Shown one piece after another: positions 30,894 through 44,242 of a stretch of 64,000 nt of DNA. This DNA comes from Desertibaculum subflavum (GTDB lineage Bacteria; Pseudomonadota; Alphaproteobacteria; Ferrovibrionales; Ferrovibrionaceae): NCBI GenBank assembly GCA_003576705.1, contig QOZS01000032.1, positions 1 to 64,000 of the forward strand. Reading direction: 5' to 3'. Within the stretch, counting starts at the first letter, position 1. The number at the start of each line of letters is the position of its first letter. Under the pieces are notes generated by a model that was not told the DNA's origin, did not search any database, and was given only the letters and a program-made list of their open reading frames with translations. Made by a program: the position numbers and the translations under genes.

Positions 30894-31817
30894 TTAGAGC
30901 GGGTCCTCGGGCGGTCGATTGTCGTTCGTTACAGTGACGGATTGAGTCAGCCGCTCGCATAGCGCCTGCAGCTGGTCGAGTGACTGATAGCTGATCTGCA
31001 CCGTCCCGCGGCCGTTACGGTCGTGAACCGACACTTTGAATCCCAGGCTTTCCGTCAGGGATCGCTCCAGCGCGGCGGTGTTCGGGTCCGGTGCCTTCGG
31101 CGCCCGGGCGGCGTGCGGCCCTTTGGCCGGCGCCGCCGCCTCGGCTTCGCGCACGCTCATCTCGCCTTCGATCATGCGCTCGGCGAAGCGCTCCGGATCG
31201 GCCGTGCGGAGCGCCGCCCGGGCATGGCCGGCGGTCAGCTTGCCCTCGCGGATCCATTCCCGCACCCGCGACGGCAGTCCGAGCAGGCGGAGCGTGTTCG
31301 CCACATGGCTGCGGCTCTTGCCGACCACATCGGCCACCGCGTCCTGGGTATAGCCGAATTCCTCCATCAGGCGTTTATAGGCCTCGCCCTCCTCCACCGC
31401 GTTCAGGTCCTTGCGCTGGACGTTCTCGACGATGGCGATCTCGAGCGTCTCGCGGTCGGTCAGGTCGCGCAGCAGCACCGGCACTTCGTGCAGCGGCACC
31501 CGCTGCGCCGCACGCCAGCGCCGTTCGCCGGCCACGATCTCGTAGACATTGGGCTCCGCCGTCGGCCGCACCACGATCGGCTGCACGATCCCCACTTCGC
31601 GGATGGAGTTCGACAGCTCTTCCAGTGATTCCGGGGAGAAATCCCGCCGCGGCTGCAGTCGGCTGGGCCGCAGGAACTCGATCGGCAGGGTGCCGGTCGG
31701 CTTCGGCCGCGGCGCCGCCGCAGGTGCCGCTTCCACATTGTCGCCGAGCAGCGCCGAGAGGCCGCGGCCGAGCCCCTTCCTGCGCGCGCTGTCATCGGCC
31801 ATGGCTGCCTCGCTCAC
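30894..31817 (-). CDS. parB: Chromosome-partitioning protein ParB (CTPase, parS-binding)
   Basis: A 307-aa ParB. The N-terminal LGRGLSALLGD is the ParA-contact motif. The CTP-binding segment includes GERRWRAAQRV. The helix-turn-helix follows in YTQDAVADVVGKSRSHVANTLRLL. The C-terminal dimerisation domain ends LEALC-like QLQALCERL. ParB loads at parS, and two sites are nearby. I keep the GTG start at 31817 with GAGG upstream; the ATG at 31802 is equally plausible. parA ends 10 bp upstream. Confidence 0.97.
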   Translation of the reverse strand: MSEAAMADDSARRKGLGRGLSALLGDNVEAAPAAAPRPKPTGTLPIEFLRPSRLQPRRDFSPESLEELSNSIREVGIVQPIVVRPTAEPNVYEIVAGERRWRAAQRVPLHEVPVLLRDLTDRETLEIAIVENVQRKDLNAVEEGEAYKRLMEEFGYTQDAVADVVGKSRSHVANTLRLLGLPSRVREWIREGKLTAGHARAALRTADPERFAERMIEGEMSVREAEAAAPAKGPHAARAPKAPDPNTAALERSLTESLGFKVSVHDRNGRGTVQISYQSLDQLQALCERLTQSVTVTNDNRPPEDPL

Positions 31818-31827
31818 TGTCGCTGCC

Positions 31828-32655
31828 TCAAGCTGCCTGTTCGGTCGTCCGCGCCCGCTCCTGGCGCAGCAGCTCGCCGGCCAGCCGCATATAGGCTTCG
31901 CTGCCAGGGCAGCGATAGTCGTAGATCAGCGCCGGCTTGCCATGGCTCGGCGCCTCCGAGATGCGCACGTTGCGCGGGATCACCGTCTGATAGACCTTGG
32001 CCCCGAGATGGGCACGCACATCGCGCGCGACCTGGTCGCAGAGGTTGTTGCGCCGGTCGAACATGGTCAGCACCACGCCCTGGATGTCGAGGCCGGGATT
32101 GAGCGTGTGGCGCACCCGCTCGATCGTCTTCAGCAGCAGCGACAGGCCTTCGAGGGCAAAGAACTCGCATTGCAACGGCACCAGCACCGCATCCGCCGCC
32201 ACCATCGCGTTGAGGCTGAGCAGGTTCAGCGAGGGCGGGCAATCGACCAGGATATAGGCATAGTCCAGCGGCTTCTTGGTCGGCCCGACCTGCCGGTCGA
32301 TGGCGTCGCGCAGACGGTGCGCGCGGCGCTCCATCTCCACCAGCTCGAGTTCGGCGCCGGAGAGGTCGATGGTCGACGGCACGATGTCGAGATTGGGGAT
32401 CCCGCTCGGCACCGCCGCGTCGACCAGATCCGCCTCGCCCAGCAGCACTTCGTAGATCGACGTGCTGCGCGCGTGCCGGCCGATACCGAGCCCGGTCGAG
32501 GCATTGCCCTGCGGGTCCATGTCGAGGATCAGGGTGCGCATGCCCACGGCGGCGAGCGCGGTGGCCAGGTTGATCGCCGTCGTGGTCTTGCCGACGCCGC
32601 CCTTCTGGTTGGCCAGCGCCAGCACCCGCGGCTTCTCAATGATCGGCGTCAGCAC
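31828..32655 (-). CDS. parA: Chromosome-partitioning ATPase ParA
   Basis: A 275-aa deviant-Walker ATPase that moves ParB-parS complexes. Walker A is VLALANQKGGVGKTTTAIN, A' is LILDMDPQGNAS, and the Walker B region is YAYILVDCPPSLNLL. I choose the GTG at 32655, preceded by GGGAGGA at good spacing, over an ATG at 32682 lying deeper in rsmG. It overlaps the 3' end of rsmG by 20 nt, in the classic mnmG-rsmG-parA-parB order. Confidence 0.97.
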   Translation of the reverse strand: MLTPIIEKPRVLALANQKGGVGKTTTAINLATALAAVGMRTLILDMDPQGNASTGLGIGRHARSTSIYEVLLGEADLVDAAVPSGIPNLDIVPSTIDLSGAELELVEMERRAHRLRDAIDRQVGPTKKPLDYAYILVDCPPSLNLLSLNAMVAADAVLVPLQCEFFALEGLSLLLKTIERVRHTLNPGLDIQGVVLTMFDRRNNLCDQVARDVRAHLGAKVYQTVIPRNVRISEAPSHGKPALIYDYRCPGSEAYMRLAGELLRQERARTTEQAA

Positions 32656-33253
32656 GCGAAAGTCCTCCCACGCGCAGGACAACCCCCGAGGGGTCCGAGC
32701 GGCTCGGCAGCCGCTCCGTGGTGAATCTCCAACATTTCGCGGCTTCCGTCAATTCGGCGTCTATATCTTGGCCTTTGAGGAACAGGCCCAAGGTGTTGGG
32801 GGTCCAGAACCGCGCCGCCGCTGCCAGCAGACGGCCGAGCGGCGCGAAGGCGCGCGCGGTCACCACGTCGGCGGCGAGACCCTCCACCGCTTCGATCCGC
32901 GCCACATGTACCGTTACGGCGGCGCCGGTGACCCGCGCCGCCTCGCGGAGGAAGGCGGCCTTGCGCGCGTCGGACTCGATCAGATGCACGCCCTGCACGC
33001 CCATGATCGCGAGCACGAGCCCGGGAAAGCCGGCGCCGGAGCCGAGATCCACCAGGCATTGCGTGTCGTCCGGCACCAGCGGCCGGAGCTGCGCCGAATC
33101 CAGCATGTGGCGGCGCCAGAGATCCGGCAGCGTCTTCGCACCGACGAGATTGATCGCCTTCTGCCAGCGGCGCAGCGATTCCGCATAGGCCTCCAGCCGT
33201 TCCCGTGTTTCACGTGAAACACCGGTCGCCGCCTGGAACTCGCCCGCGTCCAT
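32636..33253 (-). CDS. rsmG: 16S rRNA (guanine(527)-N7)-methyltransferase
   Basis: A 205-residue methyltransferase that modifies G527 of 16S rRNA. It has the SAM motif LVDLGSGAGFPGLVLAI, then VHLIESDARKAAFLREA and VVTARAFAPLGRLL. Its start overlaps the mnmG stop (ATGA). A parS site lies inside the gene: the codons for VSRET near residues 12-16 are read from the palindrome, which explains the recurrent VSRET sequence in rsmG products. Confidence 0.96.
   Translation of the reverse strand: MDAGEFQAATGVSRETRERLEAYAESLRRWQKAINLVGAKTLPDLWRRHMLDSAQLRPLVPDDTQCLVDLGSGAGFPGLVLAIMGVQGVHLIESDARKAAFLREAARVTGAAVTVHVARIEAVEGLAADVVTARAFAPLGRLLAAAARFWTPNTLGLFLKGQDIDAELTEAAKCWRFTTERLPSRSDPSGVVLRVGGLSRADADH
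33206..33221. promoter_or_regulatory. parS site 1, inside rsmG
   Basis: TGTTTCACGTGAAACA, a perfect 16-bp palindrome and the ParB-binding consensus known from many bacteria. One extra matched base on each side makes it 18 bp. It lies within the first codons of rsmG, 1.4 kb from the ParB start codon. Confidence 0.95.
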
Positions 33254-35130
33254 CAGGCCGACCGCCGCCGGCCCTCCTTCTTCACGTGGGCGAGCAGCGC
33301 GACGAGCGCCGCCGGCGTGATGCCCGGCAGGCGCGCCGCCTGGCCGAGGGTCACCGGCCGGGCGCGACCCAGCCGTTCCTGCATCTCCGCCGAAAGGCCG
33401 CCGACCGCGGCATAGTCGAGGCCGGCCGGCAGCTTCAGCTCCTCGTCGCGGCGGAAGGCCAGGATATCAGCCTCCTGGCGGTCGAGATAGCCGGCGTAGC
33501 CGGCATCGATCTCGACCTGCTCCACCACATCGGCCCGGATTCCCTGGAGATCGGGCCAGATGCGGCAGAGATCGGCCCAGGAAACCTGCGGATAGCCGAG
33601 CAGGTCGAAAGCCGAGCGGGCGACGCCGTCCTGATTCAACGCCAAGCCGAAGCCCTGCGCCTTGGAGGGTGAGATGGTCAGCTTGGCCAGCTTTTCCCGC
33701 GCCGCGGCCAGGGCGGAGCTCTTGGCCGCGAAATGCGTCGCCCGCTCGGTGCCGACGCAGCCCCATTGCAGGCCGAGACCGGTCAGCCGCTGGTCGGCAT
33801 TGTCCGCCCGCAATTTCAGCCGGTACTCGGCCCGCGAGGTGAACATGCGATAGGGCTCGGTGACGCCGCGCGTCACCAGATCGTCGATCAGCACGCCGAT
33901 ATAGGCGTCGGCCCGGCCCAGCACGAAGCCCTCGCCCGCCGCGCCGGCGCCCGCGGCACGGCGGGCGGCGTTCAGCCCGGCCATCAGGCCCTGTGCCCCG
34001 GCCTCCTCGTATCCCGTGGTGCCGTTGATCTGCCCGGCCATGAACAGGCCGGCGATCCGCTTGGTCTCGAGCGTCGGATAGAGTTCGCGGGGGTCGACAT
34101 GGTCGTATTCGATGGCATAGCCGGGCCGGAACATCGCCGCCCGTTCCAGGCCCGGGATGGTCTTCAGGATCTCGGCCTGCACGTCGCGCGGCAGCGAGGT
34201 GGAAATGCCGTTCGGGTATACGGTCGGATCGTCCAGCCCTTCCGGCTCCAGGAAGATCTGGTGCCGGTCGCGATGGCCGAAGCGGACGACCTTGTCCTCG
34301 ACCGAGGGGCAATAGCGCGGCCCCACCCCCTCGATCTGGCCGGAAAACAGCGGCGCCCGGTGCAGGTTGGCCCGGATCAGCTCGGCCGTCGCCGACGTGG
34401 TCCAGGTGATGTGGCAATCCACCTGCGGCGTCGATATGCCATCGTTGAGGAAGGAGAACGGCACCGGCGGCCGGTCGCCGGCCTGGCGCTCCAGGGCCGC
34501 CCAGTCGATGGTGCGGCCGTCGAGGCGCGGCGGCGTGCCGGTCTTGAGCCGCCCGAGGGCAAAGCCGGCCCGGTCCAATGTCGCGGACAGGCCGATCGCC
34601 GGCGCATCGCCGGCCCGGCCGGCCGGAAAGCGCTCCTCGCCGATATGGATCAGCCCGCGCAGGAAGGTGCCGGTGGTCAGCACCACGGCGCCGGCCCGGA
34701 TCGTATCGCCCTCGCCCGTCACCACCCCGGCGACCCGGCCATTGGCGATCACCAAGTCCTCGGCCGCCGCCGCGCGGATTTCCAGATTGGCCTGCTCCGC
34801 CAACAGCTTCTGCATGGCGGCGCGGTACAGCTTGCGGTCCGCCTGGGCCCGCGGCCCGCGCACTGCCGGGCCCTTGGAGCGGTTGAGCAGGCGGAACTGG
34901 ATGCCGGCGGTATCGGCCGCGCGGCCCATCACGCCGTCCAGGGCGTCGATCTCGCGCACCAGATGGCCCTTGCCGACACCACCGAAGGCCGGGTTGCAGG
35001 ACATTTCGCCAATCGTCTCGATCTTGTGGGTCAGCAGCAGGGTGCGGGCGCCTAGGCGCGCCGATGCCGCCGCCGCCTCGCAGCCGGCATGCCCGCCGCC
35101 GATCACCACCACGTCGTAGCCGCCGCTCAT
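33253..35130 (-). CDS. mnmG: tRNA uridine-5-carboxymethylaminomethyl modification enzyme MnmG (GidA)
   Basis: A 625-aa FAD protein that works with MnmE on U34 of tRNAs. The N-terminal Rossmann motif is [16 protein letters not shown], followed by [24 protein letters not shown] and later [11 protein letters not shown] and [13 protein letters not shown]. The ATG at 35130 is chosen because the frame above it runs through the parS site, where a longer reading would add a FHVK sequence and no family residues. The stop overlaps the rsmG start. Confidence 0.97.
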
Positions 35131-35146
35131 CTTCGTCTCACTCCAC

Positions 35147-35162
35147 TGTTTCACGTGAAACA
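35147..35162. promoter_or_regulatory. parS site 2, between mnmE and mnmG
   Basis: The second TGTTTCACGTGAAACA, identical over all 16 bases to site 1 and 1.94 kb from it. It lies in the 49-bp gap in front of mnmG. Two identical perfect palindromes next to parAB leave little doubt about their role. Confidence 0.95.
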
Positions 35163-35179
35163 GCGCCCACTTGCCCAAA

Positions 35180-36523
35180 TCACTTCCCGATACAAAACTC
35201 GCGGAACACCACGTCCAGCACGTCCTCGACATCGACCCGGCCGGTAATCCGGCCGATCGCCCGGGCCGCCAGGCGGACATCCTCCGCCACCAGTTCCGGC
35301 GCCGCGCCGTTCAGCGCGCGGTCGACCGCGGCCCTGCATTCCTCCAGCGCCGCCCGGTGCCGCGCCCGGGTGATGGCCGGGTGATAGGCGGCGCTCTCCA
35401 GCCGCTGTCGGACTTCCGCCGTCAGGCCCTCGATCAGCGCCGGCATGCCGCTGCCGGTCTTGACCGAGACCGGGTAGATCGCCGGCGCGGCGCCGTCAAT
35501 ACCGCGCAGCTTGAGATCGGCCTGTTTGAGGTCAGTCTTGTTGATCACCACCAGGGCGTTGCGATCGATCAGCTGGGCCACGCCCTCCAGACTGCCGCCG
35601 GCCTCGACCACGATCAGCTTGAGGTCGGCCGCCGCGCCGCGCGCCTTGGCCCGGCGCACGCCCTCGGCCTCGATCGGGTCGCCGGCCTCGCGCAGGCCCG
35701 CCGTGTCGGCCACCACGACAGGGTAGCCGCCGAGATCGAGATGGCATTCCAGCACGTCGCGGGTGGTGCCGGCGATGGCCGAGACGATGGCCGCATCGCG
35801 TTTCGCTAAAGCATTGAGAAGACTGGATTTTCCGGCATTCGGCGGGCCCAGTATGGCGATCTGGATGCCGTCGCGAAGGCGTTCGCCGCGGGCGCCGTCG
35901 GTCAGGTGGGTGGCGAGCGCGATCTCGAGCCCGGCCAACACCGGCATGACGGAGGCCAGCGCCTTGTCCTGCGGCACATCGCCTTCGTCGGGGAAGTCGA
36001 GCTCCGCCTCGAGCCGGGCCAGCACCGCCACCAGCCCGCCGCGCCAGGTCTCGTACAGCCTGCCGAGCGCGCCTTCCATCTGGCGCAGCGCCTGGCGGCG
36101 CTGGGCCTCCGTTTCGGCATCGACAAGGTCGGCGAGGCCTTCGGCCTCGGTCAGGTCCATCTTGTTGTTCTGGAAGGCACGCCGGCTGAACTCGCCGGGC
36201 TCCGCCGGGCGCAGGCCGGGGATCCGGCCCAGCGCATCGCAAACGGCGCGGATCACCGCCGGCCCGCCATGCACATGCAGCTCGGCCACGTCCTCCCCGG
36301 TGAAGCTCGCCGGCGCCGGGAACCAGAGGCAGAGCCCGCGATCGATGCTGCTGTCGCCGTCGTAGAAATCGGCGCGGCGCGCCTTGCGCGGCGGCGGCAG
36401 GTCGTCGCGCCCGGCCAGCTGCCGCAAGGCCTGGCCCGCGGCCGGGCCGGAAATCCGGATCACCGCAATGCCGGCGCGCCCCAGTCCGGACGCGAGCGCA
36501 AAAATGGTGCCCTGTGACGCCAT
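35180..36523 (-). CDS. mnmE: tRNA modification GTPase MnmE (TrmE)
   Basis: A 447-aa GTPase that partners MnmG. The N-terminal part has [22 protein letters not shown] and the formyl-THF-binding helical domain. The inserted G domain has G1 [13 protein letters not shown]2 TTRD, G3 [13 protein letters not shown] and G4 NKTD. The C-terminus ends with the conserved FCIGK, whose cysteine is catalytic. I use the ATG at 36523 (MASQGTIF); the longer frame adds unrelated residues. Confidence 0.97.
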
Positions 36524-36620
36524 TCGCCGTAGGTGACGCAAAATGCGACGCAAATCCAGAGACCTTTGCGCCATCTGTACAAAATACAACTTTCTTACCG
36601 AGCCGGGGCAGAAATTGCGC

Positions 36621-40898: not shown

Positions 40899-41753
40899 CT
40901 ATTCGTCACCACGACTTGTTGCGCCAAGGCCCTCGCCAGCCTCTTCCTGCCGCCGGGCATAGAGGTTGAGAATCGATGCCGCGGTCTCCTCGATCGAGCG
41001 TCGCGTCACGTCGATCACCGGCCAGCCATGCTGGCTGAACAGGCGACGCGCGGACGCGACCTCCTCCTTGACCAGCTCGAGATCGACATAGTCCGTGTCA
41101 TTCTTCTGGTTCAATGCCAGCAGCCGATTCCGCCGCACCTGCACCAAGCGCTCCGGGTTGGTGGTCAGCGCGACGATCAGCGGCTTGCGCAGGCCCGCCA
41201 GCTCGGGCGGCGCCGGCATGTTCGGGATTAGCGGGATGTTCGCCGTCTTCAGCCCGCGATTGGCGAGGTAGATGCTGGTCGGCGTCTTCGAAGTCCGCGA
41301 GACGCCGACCAGCACGATATCCGCCTCTTCGAGATCGACCAGTCCCTGGCCGTCGTCATGCGCCATGCTGAACTGCATGGCATCGATGCGGCGGAAATAT
41401 TCGCGGTCCATCACATGCTGGCGCCCGGGCAGCGCGCGGCTCTGCGCGCCGAGATAGTGGCCGAGACCGTCCAGCACCGGCGCCAGCACATCCACCGCCG
41501 GCAGATGCTGCTTGCGTGCGCCCTGCACCAGCGTCTTGCGCACCTCCGCGTTCACCACCGTGAACATGACGATGCCGGGATGCGCATGAATGGCCTGCAG
41601 CACGCGCTCGGCCTGCGTCTTGGTCCGCACCAGCGCCCAGAGATGCACTTCGGCCTCCGCCGAATCCTCGAACTGCACCAGTGCCGCCTTGGCGATCGCC
41701 GAGAGCGTCTCGCCGGTCGCGTCGGAAACCAGATGCAGATGAAAGCGTTTCAT
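40899..41753 (-). CDS. Pyruvate phosphate dikinase regulatory protein (PPSR/DUF299)
   Basis: This bifunctional kinase/pyrophosphorylase switches PPDK or PEP synthase on and off. It has FHLHLVSDATGETLSAIAKAAL at the N-terminus, the nucleotide-binding VLVGVSRTSKTPTSIYLANRG (P-loop-like GVSRTSKT) and a C-terminal helix after RRLFSQHGWPVIDVT. I start at MKRFHLHL (41753); GTG at 41798 gives a longer form. The gene borders the proposed origin on its left, the same place as RP001 in Rickettsia and CC_0002-like genes in Caulobacter. Confidence 0.92.
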   Translation of the reverse strand: MKRFHLHLVSDATGETLSAIAKAALVQFEDSAEAEVHLWALVRTKTQAERVLQAIHAHPGIVMFTVVNAEVRKTLVQGARKQHLPAVDVLAPVLDGLGHYLGAQSRALPGRQHVMDREYFRRIDAMQFSMAHDDGQGLVDLEEADIVLVGVSRTSKTPTSIYLANRGLKTANIPLIPNMPAPPELAGLRKPLIVALTTNPERLVQVRRNRLLALNQKNDTDYVDLELVKEEVASARRLFSQHGWPVIDVTRRSIEETAASILNLYARRQEEAGEGLGATSRGDE

Positions 41754-41785
41754 CTGCTGTGCCGGTTCGCTGTCGTGCCGCATCG

Positions 41786-41799
41786 GCATGTCATCCACA
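41786..41799 (+). repeat. DnaA-box-like repeat 1
   Basis: GCATGTCATCCACA (41786-41799); core TCATCCACA at 41791-41799, one base from the DnaA box TTATCCACA. It lies at the PPSR-side edge of the gap, overlapping possible upstream PPSR start codons. Confidence 0.6.
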
Positions 41800-41881
41800 G
41801 GGAGGCAGGGGAAAAGTCAGGGACGAAGGCGGAATATGCGCTGGGTTAGCCGCTCGCGCGGGTTCGCTCAACCCTGTCGAT

Positions 41882-41919
41882 GATTCTATCCGCTCGGTCG
41901 CCGGCCGGGGGATAGAATC
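41882..41919. repeat. Perfect 10-bp inverted repeat in the origin gap
   Basis: GATTCTATCC (41882-41891) and GGATAGAATC (41910-41919) around an 18-bp G/C-rich loop. The arms are A/T-rich within GC-rich flanks. There is no T-run, so it is not a terminator. It may be a binding site for an initiator or for a regulator of the divergent genes. Confidence 0.6.
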
Positions 41920-41969
41920 TGCAGCCATCCCGCCGACCGGGGACAAGCGCTTCCGCCATACCTACCGGC

Positions 41970-41983
41970 GCATCTCATCCACG
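41970..41983 (+). repeat. DnaA-box-like repeat 2
   Basis: GCATCTCATCCACG (41970-41983); core TCATCCACG. It is followed by CAATCCACG and CTATCCAGA at 41984-42001, three related words in a row. Confidence 0.6.
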
Positions 41984-42064
41984 CAATCCACGCTATCCAG
42001 AGACGTCGGTTCGACCTCTTGCAGAACGAACAGCTGAGAGCAACGCACAGCCGAAGCTGCAGCG

Positions 42065-42078
42065 GCATCTCATCCACA
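42065..42078 (+). repeat. DnaA-box-like repeat 3
   Basis: GCATCTCATCCACA (42065-42078); identical over 13 bases to repeat 2, 95 bp downstream. Core TCATCCACA equals that of repeat 1. A TGTGGA word in the other orientation follows at 42085. Confidence 0.65.
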
Positions 42079-42194
42079 TGACGCTGTGGAGCGTAGAACC
42101 GTGACGGTAATCCCCGATTCCCACCCCTCCTACCACCACCACCACCTTTCTCTTTCTAGAGAGACTCTTTAAGGAAGTAGGAAAGGCAGGCGCT

Positions 42195-43220
42195 GTGAAC
42201 GCATCCCCTCTCATTCGCACATTGAAAGGCGAACGTGTCGATCCGGTGCCAGTCTGGCTGATGCGCCAGGCTGGGCGGTATCTGCCGGACTATCGCGCGA
42301 CGCGGGCGAAGGCCCGCGGCTTTCTGGATTTCTGCCTGACGCCCAAGCTGGCGATCGAGGCGACGCTGCAGCCGGTCGATCGCTTCGGCATGGACGCGGC
42401 CATTCTGTTCGCCGATCTGCCGCTGCCGGCATTGGGCCTCGGCCGCGCGCTCGACTACCGCGACGGCGAAGGGCCGGTGCTGGAGCCGTTGACCGACGGC
42501 GAGGCGGTGAAGCGCCTCGATATCGCTGGTGTGCGGCGCGTGCTCGCGCCGGTCTTCGAGACGGTGGCCGGCGTGCGCGCGAAGCTTCCACGCGAAGTGG
42601 CGCTAATCGGGTTTGCCGGCGCGCCTTGGACCTTGGCCTGCTACATGGTGCAAGGCCGCGGCAGCGCGGAATTCGCCGCGCCGCGGCGCTGGGCTTGGCG
42701 CGACCCGGAAAGCTTCGCCGCGCTGATCGACCGTCTGACGGAAGCCACGATCGAGTATCTGTGCGGGCAGATCGAGGCCGGGGCCGACGCGGTGCAGCTG
42801 TTCGACAGCTGGGCCGGCCTGCTGCCCGAAGAGGAGTTCCGCCGCTGGTGCGTCGAGCCGGTGTGCAGGATCCGCGCCGCATTGGCGCAGCATCATCCCG
42901 GCGTGCCTGTGATCGCGTTTCCGCGGGGTGCCGGCCAGCTCTATCAGGGCTATGCGGCGGCGACGGGCGTGGATGCGGTCGCCATCGATCAGACGGTTCC
43001 CGTCGGCTGGGCGGCGGCCTGGATCCAGCCGCAGGCCTGCGTGCAGGGCAATCTCGACCCGCAGCTCGTGGTCGCTGGCGGGCCGGCTCTGCCGGCCGAG
43101 GTGCGGCGCATCCGTGCCGGCCTCGCCGGCGGCGCGCACGTGTTCAATCTCGGCCACGGCCTGGTGCCGGACACGCCGCCCGAACATGTCGCTGCGCTGG
43201 TCACGGAGCTCCGCCGGTGA
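42195..43220 (+). CDS. hemE: Uroporphyrinogen decarboxylase
   Basis: HemE decarboxylates uroporphyrinogen III to coproporphyrinogen III in heme synthesis. It has 341 aa from a GTG start with purine-rich GGAAGTAGGAAAGGCAGG ahead. Signatures are VPVWLMRQAGRYLPDYR, DAAILFADLPLP, GFAGAPWTLACYMVQG and LFDSWAGLL. It is the first gene on the right side of the proposed origin. hemH starts within its stop codon (GTGA). Confidence 0.98.
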   Translation: MNASPLIRTLKGERVDPVPVWLMRQAGRYLPDYRATRAKARGFLDFCLTPKLAIEATLQPVDRFGMDAAILFADLPLPALGLGRALDYRDGEGPVLEPLTDGEAVKRLDIAGVRRVLAPVFETVAGVRAKLPREVALIGFAGAPWTLACYMVQGRGSAEFAAPRRWAWRDPESFAALIDRLTEATIEYLCGQIEAGADAVQLFDSWAGLLPEEEFRRWCVEPVCRIRAALAQHHPGVPVIAFPRGAGQLYQGYAAATGVDAVAIDQTVPVGWAAAWIQPQACVQGNLDPQLVVAGGPALPAEVRRIRAGLAGGAHVFNLGHGLVPDTPPEHVAALVTELRR

Positions 43221-44242
43221 GCCGCACCGCCGTCGTACTGTTCAATCTCGGCGGGCCGGACAGCCTGGATGCGGTCAAGCCGTTCCTGGTGAACCTGTTC
43301 TCCGACCCTGCCATCCTGCGCGTGCCGGGCCTCGTGCGCGGGTTGCTGGCGCGGCTGATCGCCGGGCGCCGGGCGCCGATCGCGCGCGAGATCTATCGCA
43401 AGCTCGGCGGCCGCTCGCCGATCCTGCCGCAGACCGAAGCGCAGGCGGCGGCGCTGAAAGCGGCGCTGGGCGGCGAGGCGGAGGTTGTGATCGCCATGCG
43501 TTACTGGCGGCCCTTCGCCGCCGATGCCGCCGCGCGCGTCGCCGCCTTCCGGCCCGACCGCATCGTGCTGCTGCCGCTCTATCCGCAATTCTCTACCACT
43601 ACGACGGCATCGTCGCTCAGCGACTGGCACCGGGCGGCCAAGGCGGTGGGGATCGGTCACCTGCCACAGCACACGATCTGCTGCTACCCGGGCGAGCCGG
43701 GATTCGTCGCCACGCAGGCCGAGGCCATTGGCGCCGCGCTGGACCAGGTGCCGCCCGGCATGCCGGTGCGGGTGCTGTTCTCCGCCCATGGCCTGCCGAA
43801 GCGCATCGTCGACGACGGCGACCCCTATCCGCATCTGGTCGAGCGCACCGCGGCTGCCATCGTGGCCCGGCTGGCGCGGCCGGGCCTCGACTGGCTGGTC
43901 TCCTACCAGAGCCGGGTCGGGCCGCTGGAATGGATCGGGCCATCGACCGATGCCGAAATCGACCGCGCCGGCCGCGACAAGACGGCCCTGGTGGTGGCGC
44001 CGATCGCCTTCGTGTCGGAGCATTCCGAGACGCTGGTCGAGCTCGACATCGAGTACCGGCACCGTGCCGAGGAGGAAGGCGTGCCGCTTTATCTGCGGGT
44101 GCCCACCGCCGGCGTCGCGCCCGATTTCATTGCCGGCCTCGCCGGCCTCGTGCGCGAGGCGCTCGGGCGGCCGGGGGTCGCCCCGTATGGCGGCCGGCGC
44201 TTCTGCCCGACCGCCTGCGGCCGTTGCCCGGTTCCGGGCTAG
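43217..44242 (+). CDS. hemH: Ferrochelatase
   Basis: HemH inserts iron into protoporphyrin IX. The 341-aa protein starts MSRTAVVLFNLGGPDSLDAVKPFL at a GTG overlapping the hemE stop. The motifs AMRYWRPF, LLPLYPQFSTTTTAS, the active-site His in LFSAHGLPKRIVDDGDPY and YQSRVGPLEWIGP are present. The C-terminus ends with cysteines (CPTACGRC), the 2Fe-2S-type tail seen in several alphaproteobacterial enzymes. Translation is coupled to hemE. Confidence 0.97.
   Translation: MSRTAVVLFNLGGPDSLDAVKPFLVNLFSDPAILRVPGLVRGLLARLIAGRRAPIAREIYRKLGGRSPILPQTEAQAAALKAALGGEAEVVIAMRYWRPFAADAAARVAAFRPDRIVLLPLYPQFSTTTTASSLSDWHRAAKAVGIGHLPQHTICCYPGEPGFVATQAEAIGAALDQVPPGMPVRVLFSAHGLPKRIVDDGDPYPHLVERTAAAIVARLARPGLDWLVSYQSRVGPLEWIGPSTDAEIDRAGRDKTALVVAPIAFVSEHSETLVELDIEYRHRAEEEGVPLYLRVPTAGVAPDFIAGLAGLVREALGRPGVAPYGGRRFCPTACGRCPVPG

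Follow-up and report, generated by a model that had tools for sequence, protein, structure and literature searches.

The origin of Caulobacter crescentus, Cori, reportedly adjoins hemE, and the gene neighborhood of oriC in E. coli differs from this hemE type. As described in the accessible text of one paper (PMC4285127), Cori carries the G-box TGATCCACA, a one-mismatch 9-mer, plus weak TCCCCA W-boxes, and the available parts of another (PMC4468827) link this origin to parABS. In the basal unwinding system of the B. subtilis type, a DnaA box is followed by a spacer and a run of triplets (the DnaA-trio); the accessible sections of PMC8287927 report spacer lengths that peak at 10–13 bp and published trios that are mostly 3'-GAT-5', with a search program that treats the middle adenine as conserved. 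In B. subtilis itself, according to the portion of PMC10721633 that is available, Asn187 of DnaA contacts the amino group of the middle base, and changing the middle A to G or T harms origin function more than changing it to C. The E. coli DUE with its KAK-boxes has a triplet repeat beside the unwinding element in which the middle A is kept, the need for the repeat being still to be established according to the accessible part of a 2026 review (PMC13220808).

In the window (the whole 64,000-nucleotide stretch of Desertibaculum subflavum DNA analyzed here), the 441-bp gap between the gene for the PPDK regulator (PPSR) and hemE, at positions 41754–42194, is very probably the chromosomal oriC, lying in the place typical of the class and representing a new case of the known hemE-type alphaproteobacterial origin. 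Judged from sequence, we put the probability of the whole explanation, that is, an oriC with DnaA boxes, a trio-like tract on which a DnaA oligomer would open the DNA, and ParABS segregation, at roughly 0.93. The first-pass annotation had also called the gap a probable chromosomal origin, and this assignment is supported by a cluster of DnaA boxes, by synteny and box enrichment in relatives, and by a sampled GC-skew minimum near the orthologous hemE locus of G005, a complete 4.26-Mb genome from the same family. Like Cori, as far as the accessible descriptions go, the gap lies by hemE, contains one-mismatch 9-mer boxes, and is linked to parABS; unlike Cori, its main boxes are TCATCCACA or the form with a final G, and it has no TTAA-N7-TTAA CtrA site.

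Gene neighborhood and putative DnaA boxes of the gap

The PPSR gene (Kinase-PPPase by Pfam; 40899–41753, − strand) and hemE (URO-D by Pfam; 42195–43220, + strand) are divergent around the gap, and hemE is followed by hemH (ferrochelatase by Pfam; 43217–44242, + strand) and then by a UPF0093 gene. The open frame of PPSR runs from 40899 to 41798, and homology to the relatives begins near residue 16 in most alignments, so that the true start is probably at 41753 (Met16 of the longer frame) and the first box (41791) falls outside the gene. The divergent arrangement of a PPSR/RP001 homolog, a gap, and hemE, which marks the alphaproteobacterial hemE-type oriC, is seen in 84 of the 111 loci examined, and the earlier observation that the neighbors fit this origin locus is borne out by Pfam and by a layout that is kept in many relatives. 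The segregation system is likewise where it had been placed, 7–11 kb away: parB and parA (Pfam ParB and ParA; 30894–32682, − strand) lie 9–11 kb from the gap, and two exact parS sites found by motif scan (33206–33221 and 35147–35162, both + strand) lie 7–9 kb from it, where 0.02 matches with up to three mismatches would be expected by chance. The genes gidB (rsmG), gidA (mnmG), and mnmE (Pfam GidB, GidA, and MnmE) occupy 32636–36589 on the − strand, and the 64-kb window has no tRNA or Rfam features.

Three copies of the 13-mer GCAT(C/G)TCATCCAC had been noticed in the gap; all three are found, at 41786, 41970, and 42065 on the + strand, they are the only ones in the 5,667,292-base genome, and the reversed-pattern control has no match genome-wide. 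Their nine-base cores are putative DnaA boxes on the + strand, namely TCATCCACA at 41791–41799 (one mismatch to TTATCCACA), TCATCCACG at 41975–41983, and TCATCCACA again at 42070–42078, one of the three ending in G; all three are also picked out by a box score, and the two TCATCCACA copies by word count. A fourth putative box, TAATCCCCG (42108–42116, + strand), identified by box score, is weak, with three mismatches to TTATCCACA, and lies 13 bp ahead of the triplet tract described below. By this score, which was hand-made after the gap and its relatives had been viewed, the gap has six sites in 441 bp against a window mean of 0.52, making it the top bin in the 64 kb, and the maximum in four other stretches of the same genome is three, i.e., the cluster is denser than anything elsewhere in the window or in these four stretches; the 13-mer count is independent of the score.

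It should be noted that the genome-wide comparison covered the 13-mer and TNATCCACA words only, and that two other contigs, C13 and C45, have closer TNATCCACA pairs. TNATCCACA occurs 88 times in the genome versus 29 times for its reversed control, and a count of the listed matches gives 9 TTATCCACA, 35 TCATCCACA, and 44 TGATCCACA; none of the nine TTATCCACA copies and two of the TCATCCACA copies are in the gap. Two more TCATCCACA words lie less than 5 kb from the gap (37278, + strand; 38401, − strand) and may be there by chance. The suggestion in the first-pass annotation that the lineage may use a variant box holds in part: the gap is without canonical TTATCCACA and has TCATCCACA and TCATCCACG as its main cores, but we rejected TCATCCACA as a lineage-specific box, the gaps of relatives using TTATCCAC, TCATCCAC, TGATCCAC, and TNATCCCC. 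Because spellings vary in this way, we regard TCATCCACA as one usable spelling among several interchangeable ones, comparable in this respect to the Caulobacter G-box TGATCCACA as given in the accessible text of PMC4285127.

Of 61 genomes, that of the window among them, 51 yielded HemE, and a comparison of 110 loci yielded 33 usable gaps, the remaining 77, most of them not from Alphaproteobacteria, being without one. Words of the form T.ATCC(A/C)C number 98 in these 33 orthologous gaps against 5.8 expected, with at least one in 31 gaps, and the reversed controls give 0 for the A-type and 2 for the C-type. The same-genus gap (L086) has no A-type word and has four when either type is counted. 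The gap is kept as a box-rich stretch between PPSR and hemE in many relatives. Named relatives with this arrangement suggest that the lineage itself is alphaproteobacterial.

The A/T-rich stretch reported next to hemE is present but mild: 42110–42194 is 47% AT, and the richest 60-mer (42125–42184, 53% AT against ~31% over the window), a candidate unwinding element at and after the triplet tract, ties for ninth to twelfth place in the window. The 10-bp hairpin of the first-pass annotation was recovered as a perfect inverted repeat with an 18-base loop (41882–41919; arms GATTCTATCC and GGATAGAATC at 41882 and 41910), with one of the four GANTC sites of the gap in each arm. At the end of the trio-proximal box, a GATTC (GANTC, a possible CcrM site; 42116) overlaps the box or comes directly after it, and several relatives (L086, L087, L088, and L093) show the same. 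Strong inverted repeats at or after the tract are seen in L086, L092, and L099 (z of −6.6, −5.4, and −3.9 as RNA); their sequences differ, and a dyad at the unwinding element or a hemE leader hairpin are possible interpretations. We make no claim for a hairpin conserved beside hemE, the best mean z being −0.86 versus −0.03 to −0.57 elsewhere and the best z of the window's own gap (−2.09) falling before the tract. The gap has no exact TTAA-N7-TTAA site for CtrA, and allowing up to two mismatches within the TTAA halves brings up a single one, at 42169; a Caulobacter-type Cori under CtrA control was rejected on the absence of an exact site.

A triplet tract upstream of hemE

When the hemE-proximal ends of the gaps were compared, recurring CTAC/CAAC triplets were spotted. 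In the window, a (CNA) scan places the DnaA-trio-like tract CTACCACCACCACCA at 42130–42144 on the + strand, with 3'-GAT GGT GGT GGT GGT-5' on the complementary, presumably bound strand. The weak box at 42108–42116, a spacer of 13 bp, and the tract follow one another with the order, strand, polarity, and approximate spacing that the available text of PMC8287927 gives for the basal unwinding system of B. subtilis, and, as in the E. coli DUE (PMC13220808, accessible part), the tract adjoins a candidate unwinding element.

Among the first 33 gaps, 18 have a run of three or more CNA triplets within 160 bases of hemE on the + strand and one has it on the − strand (Markov mean 0.96), and the rest of the gap has none on the + strand. 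The set was extended to 84 gaps (111 loci examined, 27 of them without a usable PPSR–gap–hemE layout, some not from Alphaproteobacteria or at contig ends); within the last 180 bases before hemE, 43 of these gaps carry such a run on the + strand and a single gap does on the − strand (Markov mean 3.3), the numbers for the distal rest being 1 and 2, respectively. Of the 51 gaps that were not among the first 33, 25 have the tract, and the strict (CNA)x3 form is missing from 41 of the 84. It occurs in none of 13 further PPSR–hemE gaps (from 20 stretches, most of them picked for a diverged DnaA), which brings the total to 43 of 97 gaps, and in 2 of 11 further loci without an adjacent PPSR.

Among the 16 XNY period-3 classes scanned, CNA is by far the most enriched (43 versus 3.2), followed by ANC (19 versus 3.7), whose enrichment we take to be in part the CNA tract in another phase. 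The canonical-type pattern ([CT]T[AT])x3 is present in 23 of the 84 gaps on the + strand and in 13 on the − strand against 4.0 expected, and is thereby less strand-specific than CNA; the corresponding values for (CTA)x2 are 18 and 5 against 1.4. In the window's own gap, no canonical trio is present on either strand (box with up to two mismatches, spacer of up to 16 bp, at least three 3'-NAN-5' triplets) by a single-box search modeled on the published rule, the published program using paired boxes and looser mismatches. A loose NTNx3 pattern was dropped as a test, since it does not discriminate between the strands (71 and 81 of 84 gaps).

A box word (in a looser pattern) precedes the tract in 37 of the 43 cases, at a median spacing of 13 bp. 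The spacing is 11–14 bp in 15 of these 37, against 5% for random placement, and 60–92 bp in 8; the window entered this tally at 6 bp, from the looser word CGATTCCCA, while the better box TAATCCCCG gives 13 bp.

The 43 tracts contain 159 triplets, which are not mutually independent; their middle base on the presumed bound strand is A in 60, T in 60, G in 39, and C in none, compared with 13% A, 28% T, 33% G, and 27% C predicted from composition alone, indicating a preference for A, tolerance of T and G, and exclusion of C. Three consecutive middle-A triplets occur in only 3 of the 43 alphaproteobacterial tracts, and in CTACCACCACCACCA of the window the middle base is A in one triplet and G in the other four. 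The alphaproteobacterial tracts thus differ from those of B. subtilis in that the middle base is not a fixed adenine, and from the E. coli triplets, in which the middle A is kept according to the accessible account. They also have T and G and no C, unlike B. subtilis, where C is, in the available description, tolerated better than G or T.

These features lead us to propose, at somewhat under even odds, that many Alphaproteobacteria use a deviant DnaA-trio made of bound-strand 5'-TDG-3' repeats (D = A, T, or G, never C), which would be recognized by a DnaA that has an aromatic residue or His in place of Asn187; the 13 further gaps without a CNA tract, some of them from genomes with the aromatic residue, lower those odds. 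We found no earlier description of such an alphaproteobacterial trio in a search of openly accessible main texts, and the supplementary tables of the 2021 paper may list alphaproteobacterial trios. The accessible parts of Ori-Finder 2022 (PMC10225481), the 2026 review (PMC13220808), and Richardson 2019 (PMC6669920) do not mention one.

An alternative, unlikely in our view and still to be weighed seriously, is that DnaA binds the tract in another register (with 3'-TG-5' captured and the third base free), or that the deviation from published trios is nothing but base composition. CNA, NAC, and ACN repeats are one and the same tract, for which the register is not fixable from sequence, and the share of middle C on the + strand increases with the GC content of the gap (Spearman 0.46, p = 0.0018). 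Composition nevertheless predicts 27% middle G on the + strand, where 0 of 159 are seen, and T stands at 38% against 13% expected.

The confinement of the tract to the hemE-sense strand, within the searched last 180 bases before hemE, would also suit an element of the hemE promoter or leader sequence, such as an unstructured, CA-rich enhancer of translation, in place of a DnaA-trio; this we consider improbable. In 60 upstream-of-hemE stretches from loci taken as non-alphaproteobacterial by title (two being titled only Proteobacteria), where hemE is not known to lie at the origin, the tract is present in 2, as it is on the other strand, i.e., it is missing in 58. Few such tracts occur distally in the gap or on the other strand, and the tract keeps a clustered distance from the box word, as described above, but a spread-out one from hemE (interquartile range 67–95).

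Residue 187 of DnaA

A deviant trio of the kind proposed would involve DnaA itself, for which Bac_DnaA has one match in the window's genome, on another contig. DnaA sequences were aligned to PDB 8btg, in which 187 is N, 190 I, 193 I, 196 N, and 202 R, in agreement with the residues named in the accessible text of PMC10721633. In this alignment, the DnaA of the window's genome carries His at position 187 and Lys at both 196 and 202; that is, the equivalent of the Asn187 that contacts the middle adenine in B. subtilis is a different residue here.

Position 187 is Tyr, Phe, or His in 76 of 89 Alphaproteobacteria, made up of 33 of 33 in a sample of which 30 were picked for having the tract, 15 of 15 drawn from the best DnaA matches, 27 of 40 picked as diverged, and one Meinhardsimonia. 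In 10 non-alphaproteobacterial genomes it is G, S, Q, M, S, R, R, S, S, and S, never aromatic or His; among aligned PDB chains, 2z4r has N and 1l8q has Q. The relaxed middle base (A, T, or G, not C) looks like a fit to the loss of the base-reading Asn in much of the class.

The relation between residue 187 and the presence of the tract is mixed, with few genomes in the comparison and 30 of them picked for having the tract. Ten of the 13 Alphaproteobacteria with another residue at 187 were inspected upstream of hemE (G099, G101, and G104 were left out); 8 have PPSR there, and none shows a CNA tract. With Arg at 187, G088 (L337) and G145 (L336) show CAT repeats upstream of hemE and G021 is without PPSR beside hemE; with Asn, G130 (L214) shows the canonical CTACTACTT; with Thr, G077 shows TTATTACTA; and G081, which also has Asn, shows neither clearly. 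Diverged genomes in which residue 187 is aromatic or His are often without the tract as well; it is present in 2 of the 8 with a gap, and in 0 of 9 of a later set (3 of these 9 with PPSR). Triplet type and residue 187 may co-evolve, which we offer as a lead and not as a test.

In the mechanism that we propose, DnaA would bind the several co-oriented near-consensus boxes, which are visible in the gap and point to hemE, and a DnaA-ATP oligomer would extend from the weak box at 42108 across the 13-bp spacer onto the strand opposite CTACCACCACCACCA (5'-TGGTGGTGGTGGTAG-3'). By analogy with the basal unwinding system of B. subtilis, the A/T-richer segment beside hemE would open and the helicase would be loaded, and the gene content suggests that ParABS, 7–11 kb off, would segregate the new origins.

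Placement of the probable origin in the genome

In G005, cumulative GC skew interpolated from 40 sampled 20-kb stretches has its minimum at 1.208 Mb (−9.21), a value nearly equaled at hemE (1.307 Mb, −9.07), and its maximum at 3.456 Mb, about half the circle from hemE; one parS lies at 1.32–1.34 Mb. Because the skew is sampled and shows local reversals near hemE, it places the origin only to ~0.1 Mb, and to this precision the minimum is at the locus. Within the 64-kb window, which belongs to a draft of 132 unordered contigs, the GC skew is weak and not monotonic, and KOPS-like words are too few to indicate polarity.

An origin elsewhere, either upstream of dnaA or at a canonical TTATCCACA pair on C13, with the gap being a promoter with DnaA-regulated boxes, is very improbable: the two perfect TTATCCACA on C13, 30 bp apart, outdo any pair of boxes within the gap, but they sit upstream of an HNH-endonuclease gene, TTATCCACA occurs within 330 bp upstream in only 3 of 15 HNH loci (that of the window's genome included), the 980 bp before dnaA in the same genome hold two box sites, scoring 6.5 and 7.5, without a cluster, and in G005 both the HNH gene (2.448 Mb, 1.14 Mb from hemE) and dnaA (2.524 Mb, 1.2 Mb from hemE) are distant from the sampled skew minimum at 1.2–1.3 Mb, by which these two obvious rivals are rejected in the family. 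The C45 box pair was rejected as an origin, the pair lying inside a coding frame. The first-pass annotation had held that a skew minimum or a dense box cluster elsewhere would speak against the gap; the G005 skew minimum is near hemE, and C13, C45, and dnaA all fail as candidates. The perfect TTATCCACA pair lies at C13:90515 and 90545 (L115 5516 and 5546), and one TTATCCACA is retained upstream of the HNH ortholog both in the same-genus genome and in G005, which suggests that the gene is under DnaA control or that the site titrates DnaA.

As a hemE-type oriC, the gap is ordinary, and it supplies a firm location for the lineage. Of more consequence than the origin itself is that many members of one class appear to have altered triplets plus a change in the DnaA pocket; if the trio is indeed deviant in these bacteria, the code by which DnaA recognizes its single-stranded target would be directly testable by the swap of one residue or one base.
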